Both the position numbers and the translations under genes were made by a program. A stretch of DNA of 64,000 nt from Henckelia pumila (taxonomy: Eukaryota; Streptophyta; Magnoliopsida; Lamiales; Gesneriaceae): contig NC_133123.1 of assembly GCF_033568475.1 (NCBI RefSeq), positions 3,162,001 to 3,226,000 on the forward strand. Reading direction: 5' to 3'. Under the pieces are notes generated by a model. The model was not told the DNA's origin, searched no databases, and worked only from the letters and a program-made list of their open reading frames with translations. This document shows positions 5,257 to 23,650 of the stretch, in pieces. Each line of letters opens with the position of its first letter. Positions within the stretch are counted from its first letter, which is position 1.

Positions 5257-8200
5257 CTAGGTAATTTTTTTCAGACTTTATATTATTCATTAATTCATAC
5301 TTTTCTTTGTTGAGGGAGAGACTTTCAACAAACCATGGATTCAAACGAGAGTTTGAACCAGAAGGATTTCATTTATATAAAATTCCAAAAACAAGTGAAT
5401 CTATTTAAAATAGATTCTTTACAAAACTTAAAGAGACTTAGGTCTTATATACTCTTTGAAGAAATTAATAAATATGATTTCTAATTCTCAATTTTTTGAG
5501 ATCACGCCAGATTCCTCTAAACTCTCCAGAGATCTTAGAGAAATTCAAAAGACGATGCAATATTACAGTAATCAGCTGTATGAAATACCTCAGCAGATTG
5601 GAGAAATCCTTAAGAAATAAGAAGAAATTCTTGTAACTATAACGGATCTTCAAACCAAAATCTTAAATCTAGAACACACTTCTAGTTCTAGAAAGGGAAA
5701 TACAGGAGGAAGGTTACCACTCTCGTTTGGTACCGAACCTCTGTTGTATCAGAAAGGTAAAACCAAAATGATTCAAAAACCTTTAACTGATGATGAAATG
5801 ATGATTAATCTTATAAAGGAAGTATCATAGAAAAACACTATCTGATGACTACTTTAGAAAGATTAAATCTCGAGAATCTACAATATCTTGCGGATTCTTT
5901 TGAGAATCTCAAAGTAGTAGATCTAAAAATAAATTTCTCTGAGGGTGAACAACCCATAGGGAATCCCCTTAGATATGTGGTTAAAACAGAAGAACCACAT
6001 TGTGAGTTACATGTTTGATAAAATTCACATCCAGCCGGAACCAGATCAAGAAGGAGTAATATACCAATACATCAAACTCCTTATGGAAAAACTGTTTTAG
6101 ACCCGATACATCCTTATGGGGTTATGTTAAACCTGGATGTTCTGGACTTCAAAAACAGATAAGATCTTATAGATGATTGGACATCAGATATTAGAATAGC
6201 AGCAGGAACTTTAGATATCAATAAAAAAGGATTTATCAAACTTCTGGAAATGAGTCTAATGGGATCTGTCAAGATAGCTTGGGAAATGACCATGCCAGAA
6301 ACCAAGGAATCAATCTTAGAAGGAGAATCACTTAGCGAGATTGGAGGAAGAATGACCACCCTTTTTAAAGCACAATTCATAGGGGTAGACTATTTCAATA
6401 ATCAAGATACAGAGAAAAAGAGAAGATATACTCAAGCTTTGTATAGCCTCGAGTTACATGATATTTGTTTAGTTGATGAATATATTATGTTATTCACCAA
6501 ATACAGATGAAATTCGGGAGTTGAAGAAAATGTAGTCATTCAGCTATTTTTCGCAAAAATGTCATGCCCCTGGAGAGAAATGCTGATAAAAGAATACGTT
6601 CCAGGTAATCTTGATACATTGGCAAGACGCGCCTCCTTTTTGAAAGGTAAATTGGTGGAATGGTGCCATATGACAGCATTACAGAAAAATTACAAGAAAA
6701 TAAGGGGTGTTAATAAGCATACTCCTTTATGTTGTAGAGAAAATGATCTCCCTACGGTTATAGGGAATAGATCACAGGGATTTAAGAGGAAGAAATTCAG
6801 AAATAATCCCTACAATAAAAGAATGAAAAGTTCTTGGAAACCAAGAACATTTTGGTCCAAACAAAAGGCCAGAGCCTATAGATAAGGTAGAAGAAGTGGA
6901 CCTACACGAGCATCCCCAGCAACAAACTCATCACAAAGCAGAGGAAGAACACCATCTAGAAGAACTCATACGAGAGCAAGTGAAAGTTTCAAGGATTGCA
7001 ATTGTTGGACATGTGGAGCTAGAGGCCATATATCTACAAACTGTCCAGAAAATGAGAGAAAAAGAGTTAAACTCTTTGAAGCAACACCAGATATGGATGA
7101 CGCGGTCTTCTTTCAAGATCTAGTCCAAGTATATCAATTTGAGGATATCCCCTCAGATGAAAGTATATACGAAGAAGAGATATTGTTTAACCAAGATGAA
7201 TATGAAGATGAATCAGAATCAGAATCAGAATCAGAATAAAGAAGAAGTGTTTCGACATGAAACACATGAGAGTTTGGCTGGTTTTTTTAGTCAAACCACG
7301 ATATCTCATAATATGGACCAAAGGATTATGAGAGAAAATCCAACATTACAAAAGTACCAAGGATTTTCGGCAAGACGAGTAGAAAGAGTCTTAGGCAACC
7401 TAGGGCTTAGACAAAGAAGACATCATTTGATTTACAAAGTATCCAGAAGAGAAATGGCAATCCCTATAGAGTTAACAAGTAATCAAATAGAGATGCAGTT
7501 AATTCCTTTTGAAGAAGTAAGAGAGGAATTGCAGAAGCTAAAAAGTAAGGTAGCAAGAACGATGTCTTGGATTCATATTGAAGCAATCCAAATAATGATC
7601 AAGGCAACTTTTAAAGAAGGAATAGATTCACCCATAGATATCGTAGTATGTGATAAAAGAATGGAGAATATCCAAGATGCTGTTCTGGGTACGATCTCAA
7701 GAAATCTATGTGCAGGGAAAATTGTAGGAGTTATTTATCCAAGAATAGCCTACAATTTAGCTGACAGAGACTTTAGTCGAGCTTTGATGTTGCATCAAAA
7801 CTTCAAGAAAAAAGATTAATGAAGGAAGATAATAGACCATATTCTATTACTTATCAAATTTCATATGTTCTTTTTAATACTCATCATTCTGAATTATTTA
7901 TTAGAAATGAGTTTATTGAAATTCCAGAAATCTTTGGGAAAGTTGCTCAAGCAATATACCCGGAAAAAATCGAGTTTCCTTTAATTCAAGAAACAGACAT
8001 TCAAATACAAGATAAACAGGTTCTATACAGAGATCTTAAAATAGAACCCCGTAGGTTATCTTTCCAAGGTGACCGAATGACAAGTTGAAGGTGGGAAAAA
8101 TCTCCTATTCAGGAAATTCCACCAGAAGAAAAAGGAGTTTTCGATAATAGGAAAACTTAGATCTCCAGAAGGATGAAAAGAAGTCAAAATAGTATTCGAA

Positions 8201-9621
8201 ATTACAAGTCACATGAACCAATTTTTTTGTAACTCGATTTACTATTTAGAGCAGCAGGTAACAGGAACTTACCAAGCATTGATAAATATTGGAGAATTTG
8301 AAGTTCAAATATGTGGAATTCCAGAAAAAGAAGTGGATCAGCTCATTCTTGGCCTAGAGTATCTGGAGGACCATAAACCATGGAAACGCCTTGAAAAAGG
8401 AATAGAGTTTATGGCAAAAAAAAAAGACTTGGAGGATTCAATAAGAATTCTACGAGATGGAAACCAAGACAATTGGATAAGGGACAATCCCTTAATCAGA
8501 TTTGAAAACTCTGTTCACAAACTGAGGAAGAAGCAATTGTTGAAATTAGTAAGTCATGAACATGATTTACTAGAACGCATAGTAACCATACTCTACCTTC
8601 TGAAGCCTTAGGAAAACTAAAGGTGAATAGTCTTAATCGGATGACTAAGGTACAACATAGTCTATTAAAAATGGCGGGGCCATTTAGTAATCCCTTTAAA
8701 AAATAACGACAAGTCCTTTCTCCATATACATTCCGATTGGTATATTGTATGAACAATATAAGGCTGAATACTTTGCAGCTTATATTGACCCGGGAGCAGG
8801 AATTTGTACAGCAAAAAGGGGAGTCTTCCCTGAATAATGTGAAGAAGAATTGCCAAAAATTGCTGGACGAGATTTCTCTCGAAGAATTTTAATTCTTTGC
8901 AAAGGAATAAAACAAGCAGAGATCCTTATGGGAGGAGCAGGTCAAACACCCTGGTACAAGATAAAAACACCACCAATATATTTCCATGATACAGGAGCAG
9001 ACATCCTGTTAGGAAATAACTTCTTACAAATGTTTAAGAAGTACACACAAGACAACGAGTCAAGAAGACTTATGTTCACTATAATTTGTGACCATAAAAT
9101 TATCGTTCAACGACTCAAGGTTGCTTTTTATCGACAATTGCCGATAATATTTCGCAGCCAGCATGGTGATAAAGAACAACTTTTTCACCCAAAATGAAAG
9201 ATCCAAGAAGGTTTGGAGAAACCATGTTGAAAATAAAAACATAACAAGAACTTCAAACAGAGGATATGGAGATTCTCAAAGTAACTCTAAATCACAGAGA
9301 TATAGAGTTAAAAAATAAGGTATCCCTTGAAGATGTCAAAAAGAGGCTCAAAGAAAGTTACAATTAGCATCATTTGGCATGGTGGGATAGAAATCAACTC
9401 AAAGCCAATCTTACTCTAAAGGAAGGCAAAGAGTATGAATTCGTCAGATATAAGCCTATCCCAATGAACATAACAGATCAAAGGGATATGAGAATGATTA
9501 TCAAGGAACATTTGGACTTGGTCTAATCAAAGAAGGAGTTTCACCATATAGCAGCCCAGGTTTTCTGGTCAGAAATCATGGTGAAATAAAAAGAGGAAAA
9601 CCCAGGTTAGTTATTAACTAC

Positions 9622-9626
9622 CAAGG
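9622..9626. repeat. target-site duplication CAAGG, left copy
   Basis: CAAGG directly precedes the Cassandra 5' LTR and recurs at 21018-21022 directly after the Tekay 3' LTR. Neither element has a matching pair of flanks by itself. Confidence 0.85.
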
Positions 9627-10006
9627 TGTGACGCCCGGGGCTGAAGAGGCAGGGAGTGATCGCCGGTGCCAAGAGGTTGCACGGACAATGAGCGGCTCCT
9701 GGTAGGCTTCTAGGCGGAGGGAGACATGAATGAACCGATCCCGTGCCGGAATGAGAGGGGATTCTGAGACTGTGTAGGTATGGGACTACATAGTTGAGGA
9801 GGGATTAAAAGATTTCATATGTACTGCTCATATCAAGAAGGTGCATCTTCTTTTCGGAAGCTAATCACATAAGAACTCCAAAGTTAAGCGTGCTTGACTT
9901 GGAGCAATTATAGGATGGGTGACCCCCTGGGAAGTTTTCCAGGGTGCGTGTGAGTGAGGACATAAGCACGCTGAAAAGACCCGTCTTGATACAGTGGGGC
10001 GTTACA
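9627..10006 (+). repeat. Cassandra 5' LTR
   Basis: 380 bp, starting TG and ending CA, with short inverted ends. No difference from 10077-10456 was found by eye. Confidence 0.92.
9866..9934 (+). promoter_or_regulatory. 5S rRNA-derived Pol III promoter block in 5' LTR
   Basis: Contains AGTTAAGCGTGCTTG (5S A-box region) and GGATGGGTGACC followed by CCTGGGAAG (intermediate element and C-box region) in the 5S rRNA order and spacing. The stretch between them differs from 5S rRNA. Confidence 0.88.
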
Positions 10007-10076
10007 AATGGTATCAAAGCTGACCTCTCTTAATACGGTATGGTTCGGGGACGAACCAAGCGGAAGCTGGTGGGCA

Positions 10077-10456
10077 TGTGACGCCCGGGGCTGAAGAGGC
10101 AGGGAGTGATCGCCGGTGCCAAGAGGTTGCACGGACAATGAGCGGCTCCTGGTAGGCTTCTAGGCGGAGGGAGACATGAATGAACCGATCCCGTGCCGGA
10201 ATGAGAGGGGATTCTGAGACTGTGTAGGTATGGGACTACATAGTTGAGGAGGGATTAAAAGATTTCATATGTACTGCTCATATCAAGAAGGTGCATCTTC
10301 TTTTCGGAAGCTAATCACATAAGAACTCCAAAGTTAAGCGTGCTTGACTTGGAGCAATTATAGGATGGGTGACCCCCTGGGAAGTTTTCCAGGGTGCGTG
10401 TGAGTGAGGACATAAGCACGCTGAAAAGACCCGTCTTGATACAGTGGGGCGTTACA
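10077..10456 (+). repeat. Cassandra 3' LTR
   Basis: Second copy of the 380-bp LTR, offset 450 bp from the first, with its 5S-like block at 10316-10384. Confidence 0.92.
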
Positions 10457-10463
10457 AATAAAT
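10457..10463. other. 7-bp junction between Cassandra and Tekay ends
   Basis: The seven bases AATAAAT join the Cassandra 3' LTR end to the Tekay 5' LTR start. The first two (AA) equal the two bases between the Cassandra LTR and its primer site (10007-10008). The last three (AAT) equal the bases just before the Tekay 3' LTR (18151-18153). No target duplication is present here. Confidence 0.75.
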
Positions 10464-13324
10464 TGTAACACCCGGTATTTTTAAATACGTAAATCCGCCT
10501 GCATAATTAGGATATTTAATTATTTAAATTTATGATTTATGGGTTAAATAATTATGTGAATTATTTGTGCATGATTTAATTTATTTTTAAGCATTTAACC
10601 CATAATTAGTGATTTTTATGATTTTTAGTATTTTTATTATTTGATCGCGTAGACGGGACCGTGGACGGACGAGATGACAACTTTCCACCCAAATTATTTT
10701 ATGAACCTTTTTAGAGCCTTAAAATATTATTTTGAGTTTTATTATCTCAAAATTTTTAGTATTTGATTTTATATAATTTTAGGAGTCCTTTTTATCCAAA
10801 ATTAGCCAAGATAATGACTTTTAATCACTTTTAAAATTCCCTTAAACTATAATTTCGAGATTTTATTTTTAGTTATCAGATTTTAAATTTTTAATTAGGA
10901 GTTTAAGTTGTATATTTGATATTTAAAACCTTTTATCTTTATTTAATTAACCTATATTTTTTTAATTAACACAACAAAAATCAAAACCTAATCTACCCCA
11001 AACCCCACACACACACGCCTCCATCACTCCTCAGCCGACACCCCAATCCACCTCCATAGTCATTTTCTTCACCTAGCAAGCCAAGGAAGAACACCATAGC
11101 CACACTTTTGAAGGTCCAAAGCTCGTTTTCGTCGCCCCGTCGTCCCGGAAACGTCCTACGTGCGTTCTAATCGACTTCTACGGTGAAAGGCATGATTTTC
11201 TCTTTATTTTTAACATCATATCAGTATGTATTATGTAGGTGAAGTGTATGCATCGAAACTTCTTATTATTTTTTCAGAAAATGTTTTGGCTTTATTGTTT
11301 GCACCTTGTTCATGTGTTTGCTCATTCATCTCACAATTTCTTCAAGCATGGCTCGTGTATGGCTGCTGGGCAAGGTTCATGGTTGTCTTAAGGTCCCTAG
11401 GGTCGAATAACTTGGGTGGTATGAGCCATGAGTGGTCTGAAACAAAGTTATTCTTTTCTGTGCATCAATTCGCACAGATTTGGGTTCTGTGGTAGAAGTC
11501 TTCGTTCTCCCTCTTCAGGCCACGGTTTGGTGTGAGGTCTAAAGGGTTTGAACCTCCTAGATGTTGGCTAGGATTGAGAAGTGGTTTCACTGAAAAATAT
11601 GGCCGGAGTAGGGAGAACGATTAGATTTACGGAAGCCGCGCAGGCTGGACGCGAGCTGGAAAATACAGCAAGTTGTAAGGCTTCGTTCTCTTTCCTCGGA
11701 CCACCGTTTGGGCTGGTTCTTAGCTTGTTGGAAAGGTCTAGAGGTGGGCTAGCTAGTGGGGTTGTTTCTCCGGCCAGGGAGTGACCGGAGCTGGCCGGCA
11801 ACAGGCCACAAAGCCTGCTGCCCGCACAGCCGAGAAGAGAAGGGGGAGGGAAGGAGGGGCTACGGGTTTGGGGTTTTGGAGAGTGGATCCGGGTCGGGTC
11901 TGTGGATCCGGGTCGGGGCAGTAAGTCATGGGTTATGTTAGTTGGTCCGGGTCCGGGTCAAGTTAGTCGGGCTCGGGTATTTTTATTTTTAAGTTTTAAG
12001 TTTAATTAAGTGTTTAATGGGCCTAATTAAATCTCAAAATTTATTTGGGCTCCATTTAATTATTTTGGGTTGAGTTTAATTATTTTGGGCTTAATTAAAT
12101 TAATTAAGTGAGTCCATTAATTTTTATGGGCCTTGGGGGCCCATGGAAGTTATTGGGCCAGCCTTTGGGCTTTTGGGCCCATTGGGCCAGAATAGGTTGT
12201 TATTGGGCCAGAAATGTTTTAATTGGGCTTAGAATAATTAATTGGGCTTAAAGTTTAAGATATTGGGCTTAAGAATGTTAATGGGCCAGATTTAAGTTAA
12301 TGGGATTGAGTATTAGGGCCAGCAGTCCAGAACCATCCATGAGAAAATATGCATGTGTCCTGAATATATATTTAATTATTTTTATGCATTTAAGTTATTT
12401 TAATATTTATATGTTAGTAAGAAAATTAAATTAAATATATATGAAGGACACACATTTTATTCAAGTACATGCATTCATGAAATAATATTTTATGCATGAT
12501 TTAATGTTTAAGTTGAGCAATAAAAATATTTTATGTTGGAAGTTGAAGTAGTGTGACAATTTAAGGGGGACTTGTCCCCATATGATTGAAGGGCAGTTTA
12601 CTGCCAATTTAAGAGGTGATTCGTCACCGGCCACGTACGTAGGTTTCCACGCTGATCAGTATTTAATGTATGATTTAAGGTTACACTACGGATACAACCA
12701 TGCTATGTTAGAAAATGAATTGCTCAATATTGTTATGTATTATGTTATTTATGTTTATTTAAGTAAGTTATGTTATGAAATTTTTAAGCATGCTCATTCA
12801 TGTATATGTATGTATTAGTATTAAATTGATTTAAATTATTTTAAACCCTTGCTATGTTAGCATGTTGGGCCTCTAGGCTCACTACACTGGTATGGCGCAG
12901 ATGAGTACGTTGGGGATGACATTGTACCCACCGGAGGCGAGGACGTATGAGCAGACATGTAGCAGTGGCCCCGTGACCGTGACAGCTTCTGAGTCACCAT
13001 ACATGTTGTTTTATGATACATTTTAAATATTTTCGAGGGTTGAGGTTTTTGAATATTTTATTAAATATTTTTAGTGCATGCACACTTTTTATTCATTTTA
13101 TTTATGCAGTATATTTTTAATTATAGGGTTGACTCTGATATTTATTTATTTTAAAGAATGCATTTTACTTAAGTATTTAATTGTTTATTTATTTAGTCAT
13201 GTATTTATTTTAAATATTTTATTCTGTGCATATATGTATGGGCATATATGTACATATTTTATTAAGTAGTATAAAAAAAAAAAATTTCCGCATATTTATT
13301 TATTATAGAGTTAGGGTCGTTTCA
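10464..13324 (+). repeat. Tekay-like 5' LTR
   Basis: 2861 bp, starting TGTAACACCC and ending GGTCGTTTCA. The central part is rich in TTGGGC/GGGCC motifs. A conserved block near 12.86 kb (GGGCCTCTAGGCTCACTAC) has a relative in the solo LTR near 47.67 kb. Small open frames inside it recur in the other LTR and are not genes. Confidence 0.95.
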
Positions 13325-13326
13325 GT

Positions 13327-13338
13327 TGGTATCAGAGC
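13327..13338 (+). other. tRNA-iMet primer binding site of the Tekay-like element
   Basis: TGGTATCAGAGC, two bases after the 5' LTR, is a perfect match to the plant tRNA-iMet primer site. Confidence 0.92.
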
Positions 13339-13472
13339 ACGGTCCTCGGAGGGGTCATTACTGCTATGCGAGCTCAGAAATCCACGCTACCGGTCTGTAA
13401 GTTTTAAATGTTTATAGCATGATTTAATTTCTAGAATTTAAGTTAGCATTAATTTTAAACACTTAGTTATGC

Positions 13473-14546
13473 ATGGCGATTTACGTAAATAAATATGTGG
13501 TAATGCCTCCCAGACCAGTGAATAGACGTGGGGGACCTCCACCTCCACCTCCACCGCCACCTCCGCAGAACCCTATGACAGCATTGGAGCAGGCCAGTGC
13601 TACGATGATGGCGGGGATTACTGCTCTGTTGGAGCAGCAGGCTGCACGTCCCAGACTATCCCATGAGGAGGACGTGGCTGAGAGGTTCCAGAAGAAGGGG
13701 CCTAAGGAGTTTATTGGGACCACCGATCCTTTGGTGGCTGAGGGATGGATTCGCTCTCTTGAGTCCATCTTTGATTACATGGGGATCACAGACACCGACA
13801 GGGTGAACTGTGCGACATACATGATGAGAGGGGATGCAGCCCTATGGTGGGAGGGTGCAGCTAGGGGAGTTCACTTGCCCACACTGACGTGGACGGAGTT
13901 TAAGCGTATCTTCTACGCCAAGTATTTTACTGAGGATGTGCGCAGCCGCATGATCCGTGAGTTCATGAGTCTCCGTCAGGGGGACAGGTCTGTTGTGGAG
14001 TATGTGAGCCAGTTTGAGAGGGGCTGTCACTTTGTGCCCATGATTGCGGACAGTCCGCAGGAGAAGATGCGACAGTTTGTGGAGGGCCTGAAGGCTGAGA
14101 TCAGGCATGATGTGCGTATGGCAGATGTCCTTACATACGAGTCTGCAGTGAGTAGAGCCTTGCGTTCCGAGGAGGGTCGGAGAGAGATCCAGAGGGAGCA
14201 GCAGGGGAAGAGGCAGTTTCAGGCTGCATACCAGCGTCCATCTTCGCAGCCTCCTGCGAAGAAGCAGTATACAGGGCCGGCTAAGGGCCCGAATCAGCAG
14301 CAGAGGCCGCAGCAGCCGAGGGGCGGGGCCCCTAATGCCACAGCTCATCCTACTTGCCCGAAGTGCCAGAAGATGCATTCGGGACCTTGCCTATTGGGAG
14401 CAGGAGTTTGCTTCCACTGTAGAGAGCCGGGGCATCAGATAGCTAACTGCCCCAGGAAGAAGAACACCGCTGGTAGGGTGTTCGTGATGCAAGCTGAGGA
14501 GGTAGATCCAGACACCTCCTTGATCACCGGTACATCCTATCCCTAG
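13473..14546 (+). CDS. gag of the Tekay-like element
   Basis: 357 codons. A proline-rich start is followed by the retrotransposon gag domain (about residues 75-200; WIRSLESIFDYM, ALWWEGAAR, F-x-R-I-F-x-A-K-Y) and a basic Gln/Pro-rich linker. A CCHC knuckle lies near residue 315 (CFHCREPGHQIANC), with an extra C-x2-C pair before it. Gag packages the element RNA. The gag and pol frames are in the same phase, separated by about 0.22 kb. Confidence 0.93.
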   Translation: MAIYVNKYVVMPPRPVNRRGGPPPPPPPPPPQNPMTALEQASATMMAGITALLEQQAARPRLSHEEDVAERFQKKGPKEFIGTTDPLVAEGWIRSLESIFDYMGITDTDRVNCATYMMRGDAALWWEGAARGVHLPTLTWTEFKRIFYAKYFTEDVRSRMIREFMSLRQGDRSVVEYVSQFERGCHFVPMIADSPQEKMRQFVEGLKAEIRHDVRMADVLTYESAVSRALRSEEGRREIQREQQGKRQFQAAYQRPSSQPPAKKQYTGPAKGPNQQQRPQQPRGGAPNATAHPTCPKCQKMHSGPCLLGAGVCFHCREPGHQIANCPRKKNTAGRVFVMQAEEVDPDTSLITGTSYP

Positions 14547-14740
14547 TGTTTTAATAATTTTTCCTTTGGTTGAAAATTTAGTCTTTAATTTGGAATTCTT
14601 GTTATTTGGGTTATTTAACTGCATGTTAGAATAGGAAGCATGTTTTACTTATGATTAGAGTTAGGAATTTGTAGTGACTCGTTGGGGAAGATTAAGTAGT
14701 GATATGAAACTGTTGGGAATTTTCTGCGTGCAGGGAGAAT
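14530..14740 (+). other. gag-pol spacer, intron-like
   Basis: AT-rich spacer of about 0.2 kb. Its left edge resembles a plant splice donor (GTACAT) and its right edge is a pyrimidine-containing TGCGTGCAG acceptor. Ogre/Tat Ty3-gypsy elements are known to use a spliced intron between gag-side and pol-side coding regions. A similar device here is an inference; read-through or internal initiation are alternatives. Confidence 0.45.
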
Positions 14741-14768
14741 TCTAGTTGGAGACAACTCCACGTTTGCG

Positions 14769-17700
14769 TTGCTAGATTCAGGGGCTACGCATTCGTTTAT
14801 CTCCCTGGAGTTTATCAGGCGGGTAGGCATCACACCTGAGAGTAGCGACAGTGGGTATAATGTTACTATGCCGTCAGGGCAGATTATTTCTACCTCGAAG
14901 GTTATTCGAGGACTGGAGTTAGAGCTGCAGGGACATTCCATTCGAGCAGATGTAGTAGTTTTGCCTTTGAGTGGTTTTGATCTCATTTTGGGTATGGACT
15001 GGTTGACAGTCAATGGAGCTTCGATTGATTTTCGTCGGAGATCAGTGTCAGTGAGACCTGCAGTAGGCGACCCGTTCACTTTTCATGCATCTCAGAGCAG
15101 TGATTTTCCTCAGGTGATATCTCTTATTCAGGCGAGGAAGTTGTTGAGACGGGGTTGCCAGGGGTTTCTAGCGAGTATTGTCACGACTACAGAGCCATCT
15201 AGCAGATCATTATCAGAGATAGAGGTGGTTCGTGACTTTCCGGATGTCTTTCCGGAGGATGTTGCTGGAATTCCACCAGTGAGAGAGGTGGAGTTCAGTA
15301 TCGATTTAGTGCCAGACACCGTGCCTATCTCTAAGGCACCGTACAGGCTTGCTCCTACCGAGATGAAAGAGTTGAAGGAGCAGATTCAGGAGTTGTTAGA
15401 GAAAGGCTTTGTTCGACCTAGCTTTTCTCCTTGGGGAGCTCCGGTGTTGTTTGTGAAGAAGAAGGATGGCAGTATGAGACTGTGCATTGATTACCGAGAG
15501 CTTAACAGGGTCACAGTGAAGAACAAGTATCCATTGCCGAGGATAGAGGATTTGTTTGACCAGTTGCAGGGAGCATCAGTGTTCTCCAAGATCGATCTGC
15601 GATCTGGTTATCATCAGTTGCGTGTTAGAGATGCAGATGTGTCCAATACTGCTTTCAGGACACGATATGGGCATTACGAGTTCTTAGTGATGCCCTTTGG
15701 GATGACCAATGCTCCAGCGATTTTCATGGATCTCATGAACCGAGTCTTTCAGCCGTATTTAGATCAGTTCATCATAGTCTTTATTGATGATATCTTGATC
15801 TATTCTAGGAGCATTGAGGAGCATAGACAGCAGCTTCAGACGGCCTTGCAGACCTTGAGGGAGCATCGTTTGTATGCCAAGTTCAGCAAGTGCGAGTTTT
15901 GGCTTGAGCAGGTGGCATTTCTTGGCCACACTATTTCGAGAGATGGGATTGCAGTTGATCAGTCTAAGGTTGAGGCAGTGCAGAATTGGGGTATTCCGAA
16001 GAATGCTTCAGAGATTCGCAGTTTCTTGGGTTTGGCAGGGTATTATAGGAAGTTCATCAAGGGTTTTTCCTCTATTGCAGTACCCTTGACTTCCTTGACC
16101 AAGAAGAATGCGAAGTTTATCTGGAGTTCAGACTGTCAGAGGAGCTTCGATCAGTTGAAGGAAGCACTCACTACTGCACCAGTGTTAGCGATGACAGTAC
16201 CACACGAGGAGTTAGTGGTGTACACCGACGCGTCTAAACTGGGTTTAGGCGCAGTGCTTATGCAGTGTGGTAAGGTTATTGCGTATGCGTCGAGGCAGCT
16301 AAAGATTCACGAGCAGAATTACCCGACGCATGACTTGGAGTTAGCAGCAGTGGTTTTCGCTTTGAAAATCTGGAGGCACTATCTGTATGGCGAGAAGTGC
16401 AAGATTTTCACAGACCACAAGAGTCTCAAGTACTTCTTCACACAGAAGGAGTTGAACATGAGACAGCGCAGATGGTTGGAATTGGTGAAGGACTATGATT
16501 GTGACATTAGCTACCATCCGGGTAAGGCTAATGTAGTGGCCGATGCTTTGAGTCGGAAGTCATCAGTGGTATCATGTTTGACTGTGCAGTTACCACTACA
16601 GACCGAGATTCAGAGATTTGGATTGGAGTGTTATCCGAGTGGCCATGCACCGAGCTTGTCAGTGTTGACGGTGCAGCCAGTTCTGCGAGATCGGATTAGA
16701 GAGGGACAGTCCACTGATGAGGAGTTACAGCGATGGAGACAGAGAGATGAGGCTAGAGGTAATCTCTTGTATACAGTGGAGGATGGCATCGTTCAGTATC
16801 GTGGGAGGGTGTGGGTACCGAACGTCGATCAGCTGCGAGCTGAGATTTTGACAGAGGCTCACGCATCTCCGTACTCCATTCACCCCGGAAGTACGAAGAT
16901 GTATAAAGATTTGCAGCTATTGTATTGGTGGCCAGGGATGAATAGTGACATCGGGAGAGTGGTGTCAGAGTGCTTGACTTGTCAGCAAGTCAAAGCAGAG
17001 CATCAGCGTCCAGCAGGACTTCTTAGACCTCTCCCTATTCCGGAATGGAAATGGGAGAATATTACGATGGACTTTGTGGTTGGCTTACCGAGGAGTACCA
17101 GAGGGTGTACAGCGATTTGGGTGATTGTGGATAGACTCACCAAGTCAGCTCATTTCTTGCCGGTAAGGACTACTTATACTTTGATACAGTATGCAGAGCT
17201 TTACATCAGAGAGATTGTTAGACTGCATGGAATACCAGTGTCTATTGTGTCAGACAGAGATCCGAGATTCACCTCAGCGTTTTGGAAGAGTCTGCACACA
17301 GCTTTGGGGACTAGACTTTTGTTCAGTACAGCATTTCATCCCCAGACAGATGGTCAGTCCGAGAGAGTGATCCAGGTTCTCGAGGATCTTCTGAGAGCTT
17401 GTGTCATCGATTTTCGAGGATCTTGGGAGACTAGACTGCCATTAGTGGAGTTTACCTATAACAACAGCTTTCAGTCGTCTATAGGTATGGCTCCTTATGC
17501 AGCACTTTATGGGAGGAGATGCCGATCTCCGGTGCATTGGGATGAGGTTGGTGAGCGGATTTTGCTGGGTCCTGAGATTGTGCAGCAGACAGCTGACATT
17601 GTGACGCAGATTCGAGATAGGATGAGGACTGCGCAGAGTCGGCAGAAGAGTTATGCAGATGCCAGACGACGAGATTTGGAGTTCGCTGTAGGTGATCACG

Positions 17701-18107
17701 TATTCTTGAAGGTGTCACCTATGAAGGGAGTAGCGCGTTTTGGACGAAGAGGCAAGCTTAATCCGAGGTATATAGGGCCATTCGAGATCTTGGAGCGAGT
17801 TGGCACGTTGGCCTATCGTTTAGCTCTACCTCCAGGGCTAGCGGCAGTGCACAACGTTTTCCATGTATCCATGCTTCGAAGATATGTCTCCAACCCGTCG
17901 CATGTGTTGGATTTCGAGCCCTTACAGTTGCCACCAGATCTTGTGTACGAGGAGAGACCAGTGCGGATCTTGGCTACGGAGGAGCGGAGGCTTAGGACGC
18001 GGGTCATACCGATGGTCAGAGTCCAGTGGCTGAATCACTCGGAGGAGGAAGCCACTTGGGAGACCGAGGAGGATATGAGGACTCGCTACCCGGAGTTGTT
18101 CAGGTAA
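14769..18107 (+). CDS. pol of the Tekay-like element
   Basis: 1112 codons from the first ATG; the natural N-terminus may lie slightly upstream. Order: aspartic protease ([10 protein letters not shown] near residue 2), reverse transcriptase (about residues 200-400; [20 protein letters not shown]), RNase H ([13 protein letters not shown] near residue 487, later HNL-type site replaced by TDHKSL), integrase zinc finger (HPGSTKMY, then C-x2-C) and core ([17 protein letters not shown], and the [10 protein letters not shown] site), and a chromodomain-like end ([14 protein letters not shown]). The integrase-last order is that of Ty3/gypsy. Confidence 0.94.
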
Positions 18108-18138
18108 GTACTTTAATTTCGAGGACGAAATTCAATTT

Positions 18139-18150
18139 AAGGGGGGGGAG
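18139..18150 (+). other. polypurine tract
   Basis: AAGGGGGGGGAG, three bases before the 3' LTR, is the expected plus-strand primer. Confidence 0.88.
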
Positions 18151-18153
18151 AAT

Positions 18154-21017
18154 TGTAACACCCGGTATTTTTAAATACGTAAATCCGCCTGCATAATTAG
18201 GATATTTAATTATTTAAATTTATGATTTATGGGTTAAATAATTATGTGAATTATTTGTGCATGATTTAATTTATTTTTAAGCATTTAACCCATAATTAGT
18301 GATTTTTATGATTTTTAGTATTTTTATTATTTGATCGCGTAGACGGGACCGTGGACGGACGAGATGACAACTTTCCACCCAAATTATTTTATGAACCTTT
18401 TTAGAGCCTTAAAATATTATTTTGAGTTTTATTATCTCAAAATTTTTAGTATTTGATTTTATATAATTTTAGGAGTCCTTTTTATCCAAAATTAGCCAAG
18501 ATAATGACTTTTAATCACTTTTAAAATTCCCTTAAACTATAATTTCGAGATTTTATTTTTAGTTATCAGATTTTAAATTTTTAATTAGGAGTTTAAGTTG
18601 TATATTTGATATTTAAAACCTTTTATCTTTATTTAATTAACCTATATTTTTTTAATTAACACAACAAAAATCAAAACCTAATCTACCCCAAACCCCACAC
18701 ACACACACGCCTCCATCACTCCTCAGCCGACACCCCAATCCACCTCCATAGTCATTTTCTTCACCTAGCAAGCCAAGGAAGAACACCATAGCCACACTTT
18801 TGAAGGTCCAAAGCTCGTTTTCGTCGCCCCGTCGTCCCGGAAACGTCCTACGTGCATTCTAATCGACTTCTACGGTGAAAGGCATGATTTTCTCTTTATT
18901 TTTAACATCATATCAGTATGTATTATGTAGGTGAAGTGTATGCATCGAAACTTCTTATTATTTTTTCAGAAAATGTTTTGGCTTTATTGTTTGCACCTTG
19001 TTCATGTGTTTGCTCATTCATCTCACAATTTCTTCAAGCATGGCTCGTGTATGGCTGCTGGGCAAGGTTCATGGTTGTCTTAAGGTCCCTAGGGTCGAAT
19101 AACTTGGGTGGTATGAGCCATGAGTGGTCTGAAACAAAGTTATTCTTTTCTGTGCATCAATTCGCACAGATTTGGGTTCTGTGGTAGAAGTCTTCGTTCT
19201 CCCTCTTCAGGCCACGGTTTGGTGTGAGGTCTAAAGGGTTTGAACCTCCTAGATGTTGGCTAGGATTGAGAAGTGGTTTCACTGAAAAATATGGCCGGAG
19301 TAGGGAGAACGATTAGATTTACGGAAGCCGCGCAGGCTGGACGCGAGCTGGAAAATACAGCAAGTTGTAAGGCTTCGTTCTCTTTCCTCGGACCACCGTT
19401 TGGGCTGGTTCTTAGCTTGTTGGAAAGGTCTAGAGGTGGGCTAGCTAGTGGGGTTGTTTCTCCGGCCAGGGAGTGACCGGAGCTGGCCGGCAACAGGCCA
19501 CAAAGCCTGCTGCCCGCACAGCCGAGAAGAGAAGGGGGAGGGAAGGAGGGGCTACGGGTTTGGGGTTTTGGAGAGTGGATCCGGGTCGGGTCTGTGGATC
19601 CGGGTCGGGGCAGTAAGTCATGGGTTATGTTAGTTGGTCCGGGTCCGGGTCAAGTTAGTCGGGCTCGGGTATTTTTATTTTTAAGTTTTAAGTTTAATTA
19701 AGTGTTTAATGGGCCTAATTAAATCTCAAAATTTATTTGGGCTCCATTTAATTATTTTGGGTTGAGTTTAATTATTTTGGGCTTAATTAAATTAATTAAG
19801 TGAGTCAATTAATTTTTATGGGCCTTGGGGGCCCATGGAAGTTATTGGGCCAGCCTTTGGGCTTTTGGGCCCATTGGGCCAGAATAGGTTGTTATTGGGC
19901 CAGAAATGTTTTAATTGGGCTTAGAATAATTAATTGGGCTTAAAGTTTAAGATATTGGGCTTAAGAATGTTAATGGGCCAGATTTAAGTTAATGGGATTG
20001 AGTATTAGGGCCAGCAGTCCAGAACCATCCATGAGAAAATATGCATGTGTCCTGAATATATATTTAATTATTTTTATGCATTTAAGTTATTTTAATATTT
20101 ATATGTCAGTAAGAAAATTAAATTAAATATATATGAAGGACACACATTTTATTCAAGTACATGCATTCATGAAATAATATTTTATGCATGATTTAATGTT
20201 TAAGTTGAGCAATAAAAATATTTTATGTTGGAAGTTGAAGTAGTGTGACAATTTAAGGGGGACTTGTCCCCATATGATTGAAGGGCAGTTTACTGCCAAT
20301 TTAAGAGGTGATTCGTCACCGGCCACGTACGTAGGTTTCCACGCTGATCAGTATTTAATGTATGATTTAAGGTTACACTACGGATACAACCATGCTATGT
20401 TAGAAAATGAATTGCTCAATATTGTTATGTATTATGTTATTTATGTTTATTTAAGTAAGTTATGTTATGAAATTTTTAAGCATGCTCATTCATGTATATG
20501 TATGTATTAGTATTAAATTGATTTAAATTATTTTAAACCCTTGCTATGTTAGCATGTTGGGCCTCTAGGCTCACTACACTGGTATGGCGCAGGTGAGTAC
20601 GTTGGGGATGACATTGTACCCACCGGAGGCGAGGACGTATGAGCAGACATGTAGCAGTGGCCCCGTGACCGTGACAGCTTCTGAGTCACCATACATGTTG
20701 TTTTATGATACATTTTAAATATTTTCGAGGGTTGAGGTTTTTGAATATTTTATTAAATATTTTTAGTGCATGCACACTTTTTATTCATTTTATTTATGCA
20801 GTATATTTTTAATTATAGGGTTGACTCTGATATTTATTTATTTTAAAGAATGCATTTTACTTAAGTATTTAATTGTTTATTTATTTAGTCATGTATTTAT
20901 TTTAAATATTTTATTCTGTGCATATATGTATGAGCATATATGTACATATTTTATTTAGTAGTATAAAAAAAAAAAAATTTCCGCATATTTATTTATTATA
21001 GAGTTAGGGTCGTTTCA
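18154..21017 (+). repeat. Tekay-like 3' LTR
   Basis: 2864 bp, the same ends as the 5' LTR. The 3-bp length difference is explained by one CA-repeat unit and one extra A in a poly-A run. Confidence 0.95.
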
Positions 21018-21022
21018 CAAGG
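21018..21022. repeat. target-site duplication CAAGG, right copy
   Basis: Matches 9622-9626; caulimovirid sequence resumes here. Confidence 0.85.
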
Positions 21023-22109
21023 TATTAATAAAATCCTGGAGTTTGATGGGTACTTTATACCCAGTAGAGAACATCTAATTAGTTGTGTACGAAATGCTAA
21101 AGTGTTCTCAAAATTTGATTGTAAGTCTGGATTCTACCAGATTCGAATGGAAAAAGGCAGTAAAAAATTCACAGTCTTCTCTACACCACAAGGACATTAT
21201 ATCTGGGAAGTTATGCCTATGGGATTGACTAATGCACCCCAAATATTTCAAAAATAAAAATGGATAATCTTTTTAAAGATTATTTCAACTTCATGTTTGT
21301 TTATATTGATGATATTCTTATAGCATCAAAAAACATAGATGAACATGTTAAACATTTAGAGATTTTCTCTAAAATTTGTAAACAAAAAAGACTGGTTTTA
21401 TCTGAAAATAAAGCAGTCATAACAACAAGAAAAATTGAATTCCTTAGGATTGAGATTGATGAAACTGGAATAATTCTACAACCCCATATTGTGGAAAAAG
21501 TAAAGAATTTTCCAGATAAACTCAAAGATGTAAAACAACTCCAAAGTTTTCTAGGAGTAGCTAATTTTGCAGGAATGTTCATAAACAATCTGGCAATGTA
21601 CAGAAAGGTGTTCAGCCCTTTGTTAAAAAAGGATGCAAGGTTTATATGGACCGATTACCATACTAAAGGGGTGAACCAATTAAAGGAGATATGTAAGAAT
21701 CTTCCAAAAATGACTATAAACGCGGATGAAGATGATCTGGTGTTATTTACGGATGCTAGTGATGAATGGTGGGCAACAGTGCTTACTAAGATCACTCCGG
21801 ATGGAAAAATACCATGCAGATACTGTAGCGGTCTTTTTTCAGAATCTGAAGCTATCAGATGACATATCAACGAGAAGAAATTTTATGCAGTTAAAAGGGC
21901 TTTCAAAAAATGGCCATTATTTTTACTTGCTAAAAAATTCACTTTGAAGGTTGATAACACTCAGGTAAAAGCTTTCTTAAGAAATAAGATTGAATCTAAA
22001 CCTGAGAAAGCTAGGTTATTAAGATGGCAAGCTTTATGTCAAAATTATATTTTTGATATTGTTATTATTAAATCTCATAAAAATATTCTTGCAGATTTCT
22101 TAACAAGAG

Positions 22110-23650
22110 ATGGAAGGAAGTGACGTAGATTCCATCATGAAAATGCAGAGGCATCTCAGGGAACACCTTGGGCTGATTCAAACCGAGTTCAACCAGCTTG
22201 TCCTAAGTGCCGATATGGCGGGCATGTTACAACAAGCTGATCGGATCAAAGTATCCAATCGAATCACAGGATGTATGCAAGCTCAAACTCAACTATGGGT
22301 TGCTATTCAAGGGCCAATTATGCGTGCCATAGAAAAACCACTGGTTTCTAAAAAACAAGAAATGTTAAAACCATTGGTTTTACAAGAACAAGAAATACAG
22401 CCACCGGTTGTAAAACAATATGTTGAGGATTCTAATACTCAAGAAACAAGCGCTAATCTATCATCAGCTTTTGATGATCTAGATAAAGCAACAATTGATG
22501 ATGATAACTCATCAAGTCAACCCTCCGCCTCTGGGATAAAAGAGAAAGAGATCAATCTTAGGCCCCACACCGACAAGGGCAAATCTAAGATCGATACTAA
22601 CCCAACTGTAATTTCTCCATTTCAGGTTTATCAACAAAGATGGGAGAAATTAAGCACAAGAAGTGAAATCAACCCGATCACTTGCAGGGTTGATGTTGCA
22701 GGAATATATCCAAGGGTTTGACTAAAAAACAATGTCAATCCTAAGGATGTAAAGCTATGGTATGAATTTGGGGCTCTAGCCTCAGTTTATACAACTTCAC
22801 CAGGCTTCCAAGAAATATCACAACTACCAAAATGGATTCAGGAAGCAGTCCAAGAAACATGAGAAAATAATGATCATTTGTCCAGAGGAGATGTGCTCGA
22901 GTTATACTTCTTTAGTGCAGCTCCAGAACCAACAGGAAAAGGATCACACGAGCCCTTTCATTTCATCAAGCTAAGGAGACCTGACATGAATAATCAAAGA
23001 TTTATCAAGGATCTTATATCTGAAAAAATATCATTGGTGTCCACTTTTGGAGAAAATGAAATTTCAACCAGAAGGGCATGAGGTATTTGGGTTTGTCTCA
23101 CCGAGATGGATAAGGTCAAGTTTTCGTTCAAATTTTATCAAAATTATGTGAACAGATCATTCCTGTTAAACACAATAACAGGAAAAACTACGGCTTTTGT
23201 GGAAAAACTCTTCGAAAAGAAGAGGAACTTTTTGTGGAACAACAAGCTGACGGGGAGTAAAGAAACTCGCCGAAAAATTTTGTAACATGACTCATATCGG
23301 AAGATGGTCAAAGAATATCTGCCCAAAATGTCCAAACCAGAAGGAGCCAGAATTCGAAAAAACCTTCAAACCCCGAACGGATCGAAAAGATTTTTTCGAG
23401 ACAAGCAAAGGTGGACAAGGACCACCAAAACCGCGTTTTCCCAGGGGCCCACTGCAAAAAACAAAATATGCCCCGACAACAATAAAGAAGGCATGTGAGG
23501 AGAATAAATCCAAAAGAAAAAGTCAAGCATGTGACTCCTCCACTAGTAAAAGATGTCATCGGGCATATGACTCTCCCACTAGCAAAAGATGCCATCAATA
23601 ATGGCATACAAAAATTAAAGACAGCTGTAAGATTCCCTGAAGTTTCTCGG
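22110..23650 (+). pseudogene. TAV-like (transactivator/viroplasmin-type) region of the caulimovirid
   Basis: About 1.5 kb of caulimovirid coding sequence just after RNase H. Position and size fit the last gene of solendo- and cavemoviruses (about 50 kDa, inclusion-body/translation transactivator). The first ~200 residues are Gln/Glu-rich with a helical start, and a basic Lys/Arg/Pro tail follows. I infer the identity from position more than from motifs. The region is broken. Confidence 0.5.

Follow-up and report, generated by a model that had tools for sequence, protein, structure and literature searches.

Joined Cassandra and chromovirus units with a single target duplication in Henckelia pumila point to chromoviruses as autonomous partners of Cassandra

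Results

Joined unit in the window

The window analysed, a stretch of 64,000 nucleotides of Henckelia pumila (assembly GCF_033568475.1, contig NC_133123.1, positions 3,162,001 to 3,226,000), contains a Cassandra element, which is a terminal-repeat retrotransposon in miniature (TRIM), joined head to tail to a Ty3-type chromovirus (Table 1). A single pair of the 5-bp sequence CAAGG, with its copies about 11.4 kb apart, encloses the Cassandra (9627-10456), the join AATAAAT and the chromovirus (10464-21017), which has a total of 10,554 bp and shows gag and pol open frames. The five bases to the right of the Cassandra are AATAA and the five to the left of the chromovirus are TAAAT and, because these inner flanks do not match CAAGG, neither element has a duplication of its own. 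This arrangement, described in the original prediction, is confirmed, and so are the ends TGTRACRCCCGG and the primer-binding site (PBS; TGGTATCAAAGC in Cassandra and TGGTATCAGAGC in the chromovirus) that it claimed for both elements. The Cassandra long terminal repeats (LTRs) are identical over 380 bases, and those of the chromovirus show six substitutions and three gap columns over about 2860; this divergence predicts about 0.8 substitutions per 380 bases, so the ages of both elements are compatible.

Table 1. Features of the joined unit, in positions of the window
Feature	Position	Strand	Remark
Left copy of 5-bp target duplication	9622..9626	.	CAAGG
Cassandra 5' LTR	9627..10006	+
Spacer from Cassandra LTR end to PBS	10007..10008	+	AA
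Cassandra PBS	10009..10020	+	TGGTATCAAAGC
Cassandra purine-rich GGTGGG, then CA, ahead of 3' LTR	10069..10076	+	putative role
Cassandra 3' LTR	10077..10456	+	no difference from 5' LTR
Join, 7 nt	10457..10463	+	AATAAAT, putative parts
Chromovirus 5' LTR	10464..13324	+
GT linker and chromovirus PBS	13325..13338	+	TGGTATCAGAGC
gag open frame	13473..14546	+
pol open frame	14769..18107	+	protease, reverse transcriptase, RNase H, integrase, weak terminal chromodomain
Polypurine tract and AAT ahead of 3' LTR	18141..18153	+	putative role
Chromovirus 3' LTR	18154..21017	+
Right copy of 5-bp target duplication	21018..21022	.	CAAGG

The Cassandra shows a 380-70-380 bp organization, with no open frame of at least 120 aa listed there, and its LTR is followed by the PBS TGGTATCAAAGC, which we take to be of the initiator-methionine type. 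The Rfam 5S model matches both Cassandra LTRs over its positions 1-120 with 23.7 bits (E 0.031), under the gathering score of 38, and in the 5' LTR this weak full-length 5S rRNA match is located at 9839-9952. The chromovirus encodes a Ty3 gag and a pol with the Pfam order protease, reverse transcriptase, RNase H and integrase; the Pfam Chromo match, at pol residues 1066-1110 of 1112, shows an E value of 1.4e-4 and 22.1 bits, below the cut-off of 25.1. TGTAACACCC, the U3 attachment sequence of Del, is present at 10 of 10 positions in both chromovirus LTRs, as expected for Tekay/Del, two names for one lineage. The Cassandra start TGTGACGCCC agrees with this sequence at eight of 10 positions, including 3, 6, 9 and 10, given as the most conserved ones in the available text of PMC4029996. 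The available part of PMC10853983 describes a methionine PBS as a hallmark of Cassandra.

The same genome has 885 Mb in 133 contigs (C numbers denote contigs and L numbers examined genome stretches). A sample of the 39 Cassandra elements closest to that of the window includes 26 with an ordinary 5-bp pair, copies of the kind that the original prediction proposed to look for; six joined to a chromovirus (window, L006, L012, L017, L018/L019 and L117); one inverted pair with its own duplication (L121/L122); and six without class (L005, L010, L013, L026, L129 and C1:52141061). The Cassandra ends without class are those of L005 and L010, L013, L026 and L129/L130. L005 (C4:140.40M) and L010 (C1:109.84M) show a Cassandra LTR and a truncated internal region within a 3.38-kb stretch, 99.8% identical. 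The inverted pair, at C3:96029737-96030727, is flanked by GGATA and is perhaps a self-integration or strand-switch product.

End-to-end joins and untrimmed ends

A pattern with an LTR end at most 30 bases from an LTR start is found at 32 places in the genome, and its reversed-pattern control at two. Thirty of the 32 were examined: 13 are Cassandra-chromovirus joins, of the kind that the original prediction proposed to search for, seven are Cassandra-Cassandra joins, two are ordinary Cassandra copies with their own pair and eight lack Cassandra. The 13 joins show Cassandra to chromovirus, chromovirus to Cassandra and head-to-head orientations, and separate orientation searches revealed two head-to-head places, including one new place, and four tail-to-tail places known from matched text. 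Besides tandem and inverted Cassandra-chromovirus joins, the genome contains heterodimers recombined at the PBS and a hybrid whose two LTRs come one from Cassandra and one from the chromovirus. At C2:116.3M (L043, L081), a chromovirus-Cassandra composite lies inside the internal region of another chromovirus copy, with AGTGG duplicated. In a Cassandra array at C1:24.72M (L031, L032), one 9-bp join, AATATATAA, recurs between full units and resembles a two-LTR junction that has been repeated.

Two bases, AA, separate the LTR end GTTACA of Cassandra from its PBS TGGTATCAAAGC, and three, AAT, separate the purine tract of the chromovirus from the start of its LTR. Integrase normally removes such terminal bases, as established for retroviruses. 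In the window unit they are kept at the inner join (AA-TA-AAT) and gone at both outer ends. Judging from the bases themselves, AATAAAT would contain the AA of an untrimmed Cassandra end, a TA filler and the AAT of an untrimmed chromovirus end, and kept inner bases with trimmed outer ends are what would be expected if two linear cDNAs had been end-joined, still unprocessed, before they were integrated. The same signature is found in other joins: CA, the bases between purine tract and LTR that form the untrimmed Cassandra start, is located left of the Cassandra in eight of 13 joins and in none of 27 ordinary copies (P 2e-7 for the joins under 1/16), and AA, the untrimmed end, follows the Cassandra in four of the five joins on that side. 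These counts omit one gap-free head-to-head match and two of the four tail-to-tail matches, both with AA after the Cassandra end. Some joins show extra bases, which are a partial PBS in L041 and a partial purine tract in L117 and, from matched text only, in C77:6416469.

Hybrids recombined at the PBS

Other composites pass from one element into the other exactly at the PBS (C, Cassandra; T, chromovirus). The form C-LTR/T-internal...T-LTR/C-internal/C-LTR is found at C1:2.70M (L018, L019) and C1:84.67M (L085, L086), and shorter C-T-C forms at C2:32.04M, where the chromovirus part consists of short matches of 31-58 bases, C2:49.26M and C2:87.3M. The form T-LTR/C-internal/C-LTR/T-internal...T-LTR is found at C3:58.97M (L087), C4:33.38M (L088) and C66 (L089), the last with its far end sought and not found. 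A single T-LTR/C-internal/C-LTR hybrid is located at C3:87.84M (L099, L111, L112), and the hybrid at C4:226.8M (L097, L107) has at its far end a Cassandra LTR in inverted orientation. These PBS-exact hybrids are independent loci with differing duplications. The window unit and C3:87.84M show one outer end from each element at integration. Exact Cassandra LTR-PBS-chromovirus junctions number 15 genome-wide, and the 10 examined all start in a Cassandra LTR. LTR-PBS junctions of related type, with at most one mismatch, number 1692 in the genome; their 60 exact rows are mostly not chimeras, and six of the 20 examined start in a Cassandra LTR.

Single spanning duplications

Fourteen composites have comparable outer ends and, as in a template-switch complex, 13 of them show a perfect 5-bp pair and one a pair matching at four of five bases. 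The perfect pairs are CAAGG (window), CCAAC, AGTGG, ATTAC, CACTG, GATGC, ATGAG, CAAAA, ACCTC, ACATC, CACTT, TCTTG and TGGGG, the last one (L078/L185) outside the table of 13 composites used for cross-pairing. That control gave no match in 156 pairings; a 5-bp match by chance has a probability of about 1 in 1024, and 12 composites besides the window unit are perfect. At C4:152.01M, CACTG was predicted next to an LTR start and is present 2.68 kb upstream of the join, in one of the three genome-wide matches to this combination, and the remainder looks like one LTR of each element.

Census of partner families

The census covers the first 100 entries of each junction list, all on contig C1. Of the Cassandra LTR-PBS junctions (512 in the genome), 79 enter Cassandra, two enter the chromovirus and 19 were examined singly: 15 are Cassandra variants, two are Tekay-type (L156, L158), one belongs to family X (L145), a second chromovirus-like family, and one to another Ty3-type gag family (L142, L182). 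In total, six of 100 enter another element: four Tekay-type, one X and one further Ty3-type. In the PBS-Cassandra internal junctions (667 in the genome), 77 of 100 are preceded by GTTACA, three of these with the GT linker; the other 23 include 16 variant or truncated Cassandra LTRs, four Tekay-type LTRs, one of family X (L166) and one without clear class (L171). Loci common to both lists are C1:2.70M, C1:84.67M, C1:42.607M (X) and C1:120.23M. Family X shows a chromodomain-like end (E 4.7e-4, below the cut-off), and its pol pieces share 46-79% identity with the window element, with 49% identity over 205 residues for the L182 gag. The partners identified are several Ty3-type families, among which the Tekay-type is the commonest seen and not the sole one, in raw counts unscaled to copy number.

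An exclusive Tekay partnership is disproved by the census (L145/L166, L142, L163). The partnership with this particular chromovirus, as originally proposed, is too narrow, since Cassandra also has PBS hybrids with a second chromovirus-like family and a further Ty3-type family.

At C1:42.607M (L145, L166, L181) the arrangement is X-Cassandra-X. L141, L149-L152, L154, L155, L157, L159 and L054 belong to a second Cassandra subfamily, which has the LTR start TGTGACACCCG and an internal variant of its own.

Sequence around the unit

The unit is inserted in pararetrovirus-like sequence (window 7139-9621 and 21023-22721), with Pfam matches to a viral movement-protein frame (7139-7819) and to reverse-transcriptase/RNase H pieces (21260-21862). 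Other frames, at 34363-60025, encode an ABC-2 transporter piece, an OPT transporter piece, a plant mobile domain and an NF-Y-type histone fold.

Discussion

A single integration of the joined Cassandra-chromovirus unit, as originally predicted, is well supported, because one duplication spans both elements, untrimmed cDNA ends lie at the join and the same signature recurs in other composites. An unprocessed Cassandra cDNA end would have been ligated to an unprocessed chromovirus cDNA end before integration, and integrase would then have processed the outer ends (Cassandra U3 and chromovirus U5), inserted the chimera and duplicated CAAGG. The original prediction also took the joined cDNAs as direct physical evidence of co-packaging, which is overstated for the window locus alone, because cDNAs from separate particles could be end-joined in the nucleus; the PBS-exact hybrids elsewhere are stronger evidence and suggest that both RNAs were in one particle. 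By analogy with the retroviral scheme, exchange at the PBS would be the outcome of strong-stop DNA transfer if both templates were in one reverse-transcription complex. Cassandra RNA would thus be packaged and reverse-transcribed in chromovirus particles, where the strong-stop DNA of one element may prime on the other at the shared PBS and give C-T-C and T-C-T heterodimers and hybrids with one LTR from each element, and the end joining of finished cDNAs would give the tandems and inverted joins. We infer the co-packaging, the integrase responsible and chromoviruses, mostly Tekay-type here, as the normal autonomous helpers of Cassandra. That the window unit is one integration product, with Cassandra reverse-transcribed in the particles of chromoviruses as its autonomous partners, is given a probability of about three in four.

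Retroviral cDNAs are known to undergo end joining in the nucleus, the window join resembles an end-joined two-LTR junction and joins are found in several orientations; cDNAs from different particles might therefore have been joined in the nucleus and integrated as one unit, with no shared particle and no special partnership. This origin is unlikely, since it leaves the PBS-recombined hybrids with a single outer duplication unexplained. Those hybrids might in turn be products of already integrated copies, joined or adjacent to each other, whose short PBS repeats recombined or underwent single-strand annealing: a T-C unit losing the stretch between its PBSs and keeping its outer duplication would become a one-LTR-from-each hybrid. 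However, the shared PBS has just about 12 bases, and a deletion alone would not produce C-T-C and T-C-T forms with both internal regions, like outer LTRs and one duplication, which makes such a history very improbable.

Plant genomes often contain nested and adjacent insertions, and an ordinary Cassandra with its own duplication exists inside chromovirus sequence, for example in L015. Separate side-by-side insertions that later lost their inner duplications by deletion or conversion are nevertheless highly unlikely: independent insertions have different duplications, so their outer ends should not match, whereas they do in 13 of 14 composites, and the inner join retains untrimmed ends. An assembly artefact at the window join is scarcely credible; although repeats are places where assemblies fail, a false join would not yield matching 5-bp ends 11.4 kb apart, the pattern is found in 13 other composites (one at four of five bases) and the contig has 233.5 Mb.

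Several points weigh against chromovirus particles as the site of Cassandra replication. End joins by themselves require no shared particle. The partners belong to more than one family, one junction of the second census list is preceded by an LTR without family assignment (L163), and partner counts are unscaled to the abundance of other families with this PBS. The outer ends at C2:87.3M are ACAAA and ACAAG, a match at four of five. At least 18 examined composites stand outside the 14, with far ends not found or too rearranged (L017, L039, L042, L044, L049, L050, L053, L054, L057, L060, L071, L089, L092/L093, L095, L096, L098, L100 and L117); in L082, L106 and L109 the sought end lay beyond the examined stretch. 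Outside the window, composites were read at their ends and junctions rather than in their interiors, and the evidence is the assembled sequence of one genome.

Related systems are compared here as the accessible portions of the publications describe them. The template-switch complexes of Sabot and Schulman (2007, PMC1950507) likewise have three LTRs within one 5-bp duplication and were attributed to strand switching between RNAs packaged together; however, those cases (Angela, Squiq and Opie) join related copies of one family, whereas here a protein-less TRIM is joined to unrelated chromoviruses, either at the PBS or by their ends. Tandem plant LTR retrotransposons with 5-bp duplications, among which the Tekay lineage is over-represented in rice (2025, PMC11899658), consist of like elements, and here a TRIM is joined to a candidate helper. 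The Cassandra tandem arrays of Kalendar (2020, PMC7215508) involve the same element type and template switching is discussed, but they join Cassandra with Cassandra, call its partners unknown and name no autonomous one in the text available; here a chromovirus is joined. Cereba and Quinta of einkorn (2024, PMC11302176) are a Ty3-type helper and a non-autonomous element whose pairing rests on motifs common to both in LTR, PBS and purine tract; Quinta is a GAG-encoding descendant of Cereba, whereas Cassandra encodes nothing and has in common with the chromovirus only short end motifs and the PBS. A search for TRIM helpers (Gao 2016, PMC4717578) used LTR similarity and gave putative autonomous relatives for 11 of 289 subfamilies, with no helper named for Cassandra in the accessible text. 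Papers of 2020 and 2024 call the Cassandra helper unknown, and no named helper was found in the literature searched, in which coverage of subscription journals is small.

Since the LTRs of Cassandra and its helper differ, sequence similarity does not reveal the helper. Chimeras with a single duplication physically tie helper to passenger, so any good plant assembly can be queried likewise, and the approach could serve other non-autonomous elements. Some Asteraceae elements contain a Cassandra internal region without a Cassandra LTR (PMC10853983, in the part available), and LTR swaps at the PBS might account for them. It is rather likely that chromoviruses, chiefly of the Tekay/Del type, replicate Cassandra in plants, with PBS strand exchange in one particle repeatedly swapping LTRs and internal regions; if so, the genome would hold a readable fossil record of the Cassandra-chromovirus partnership.
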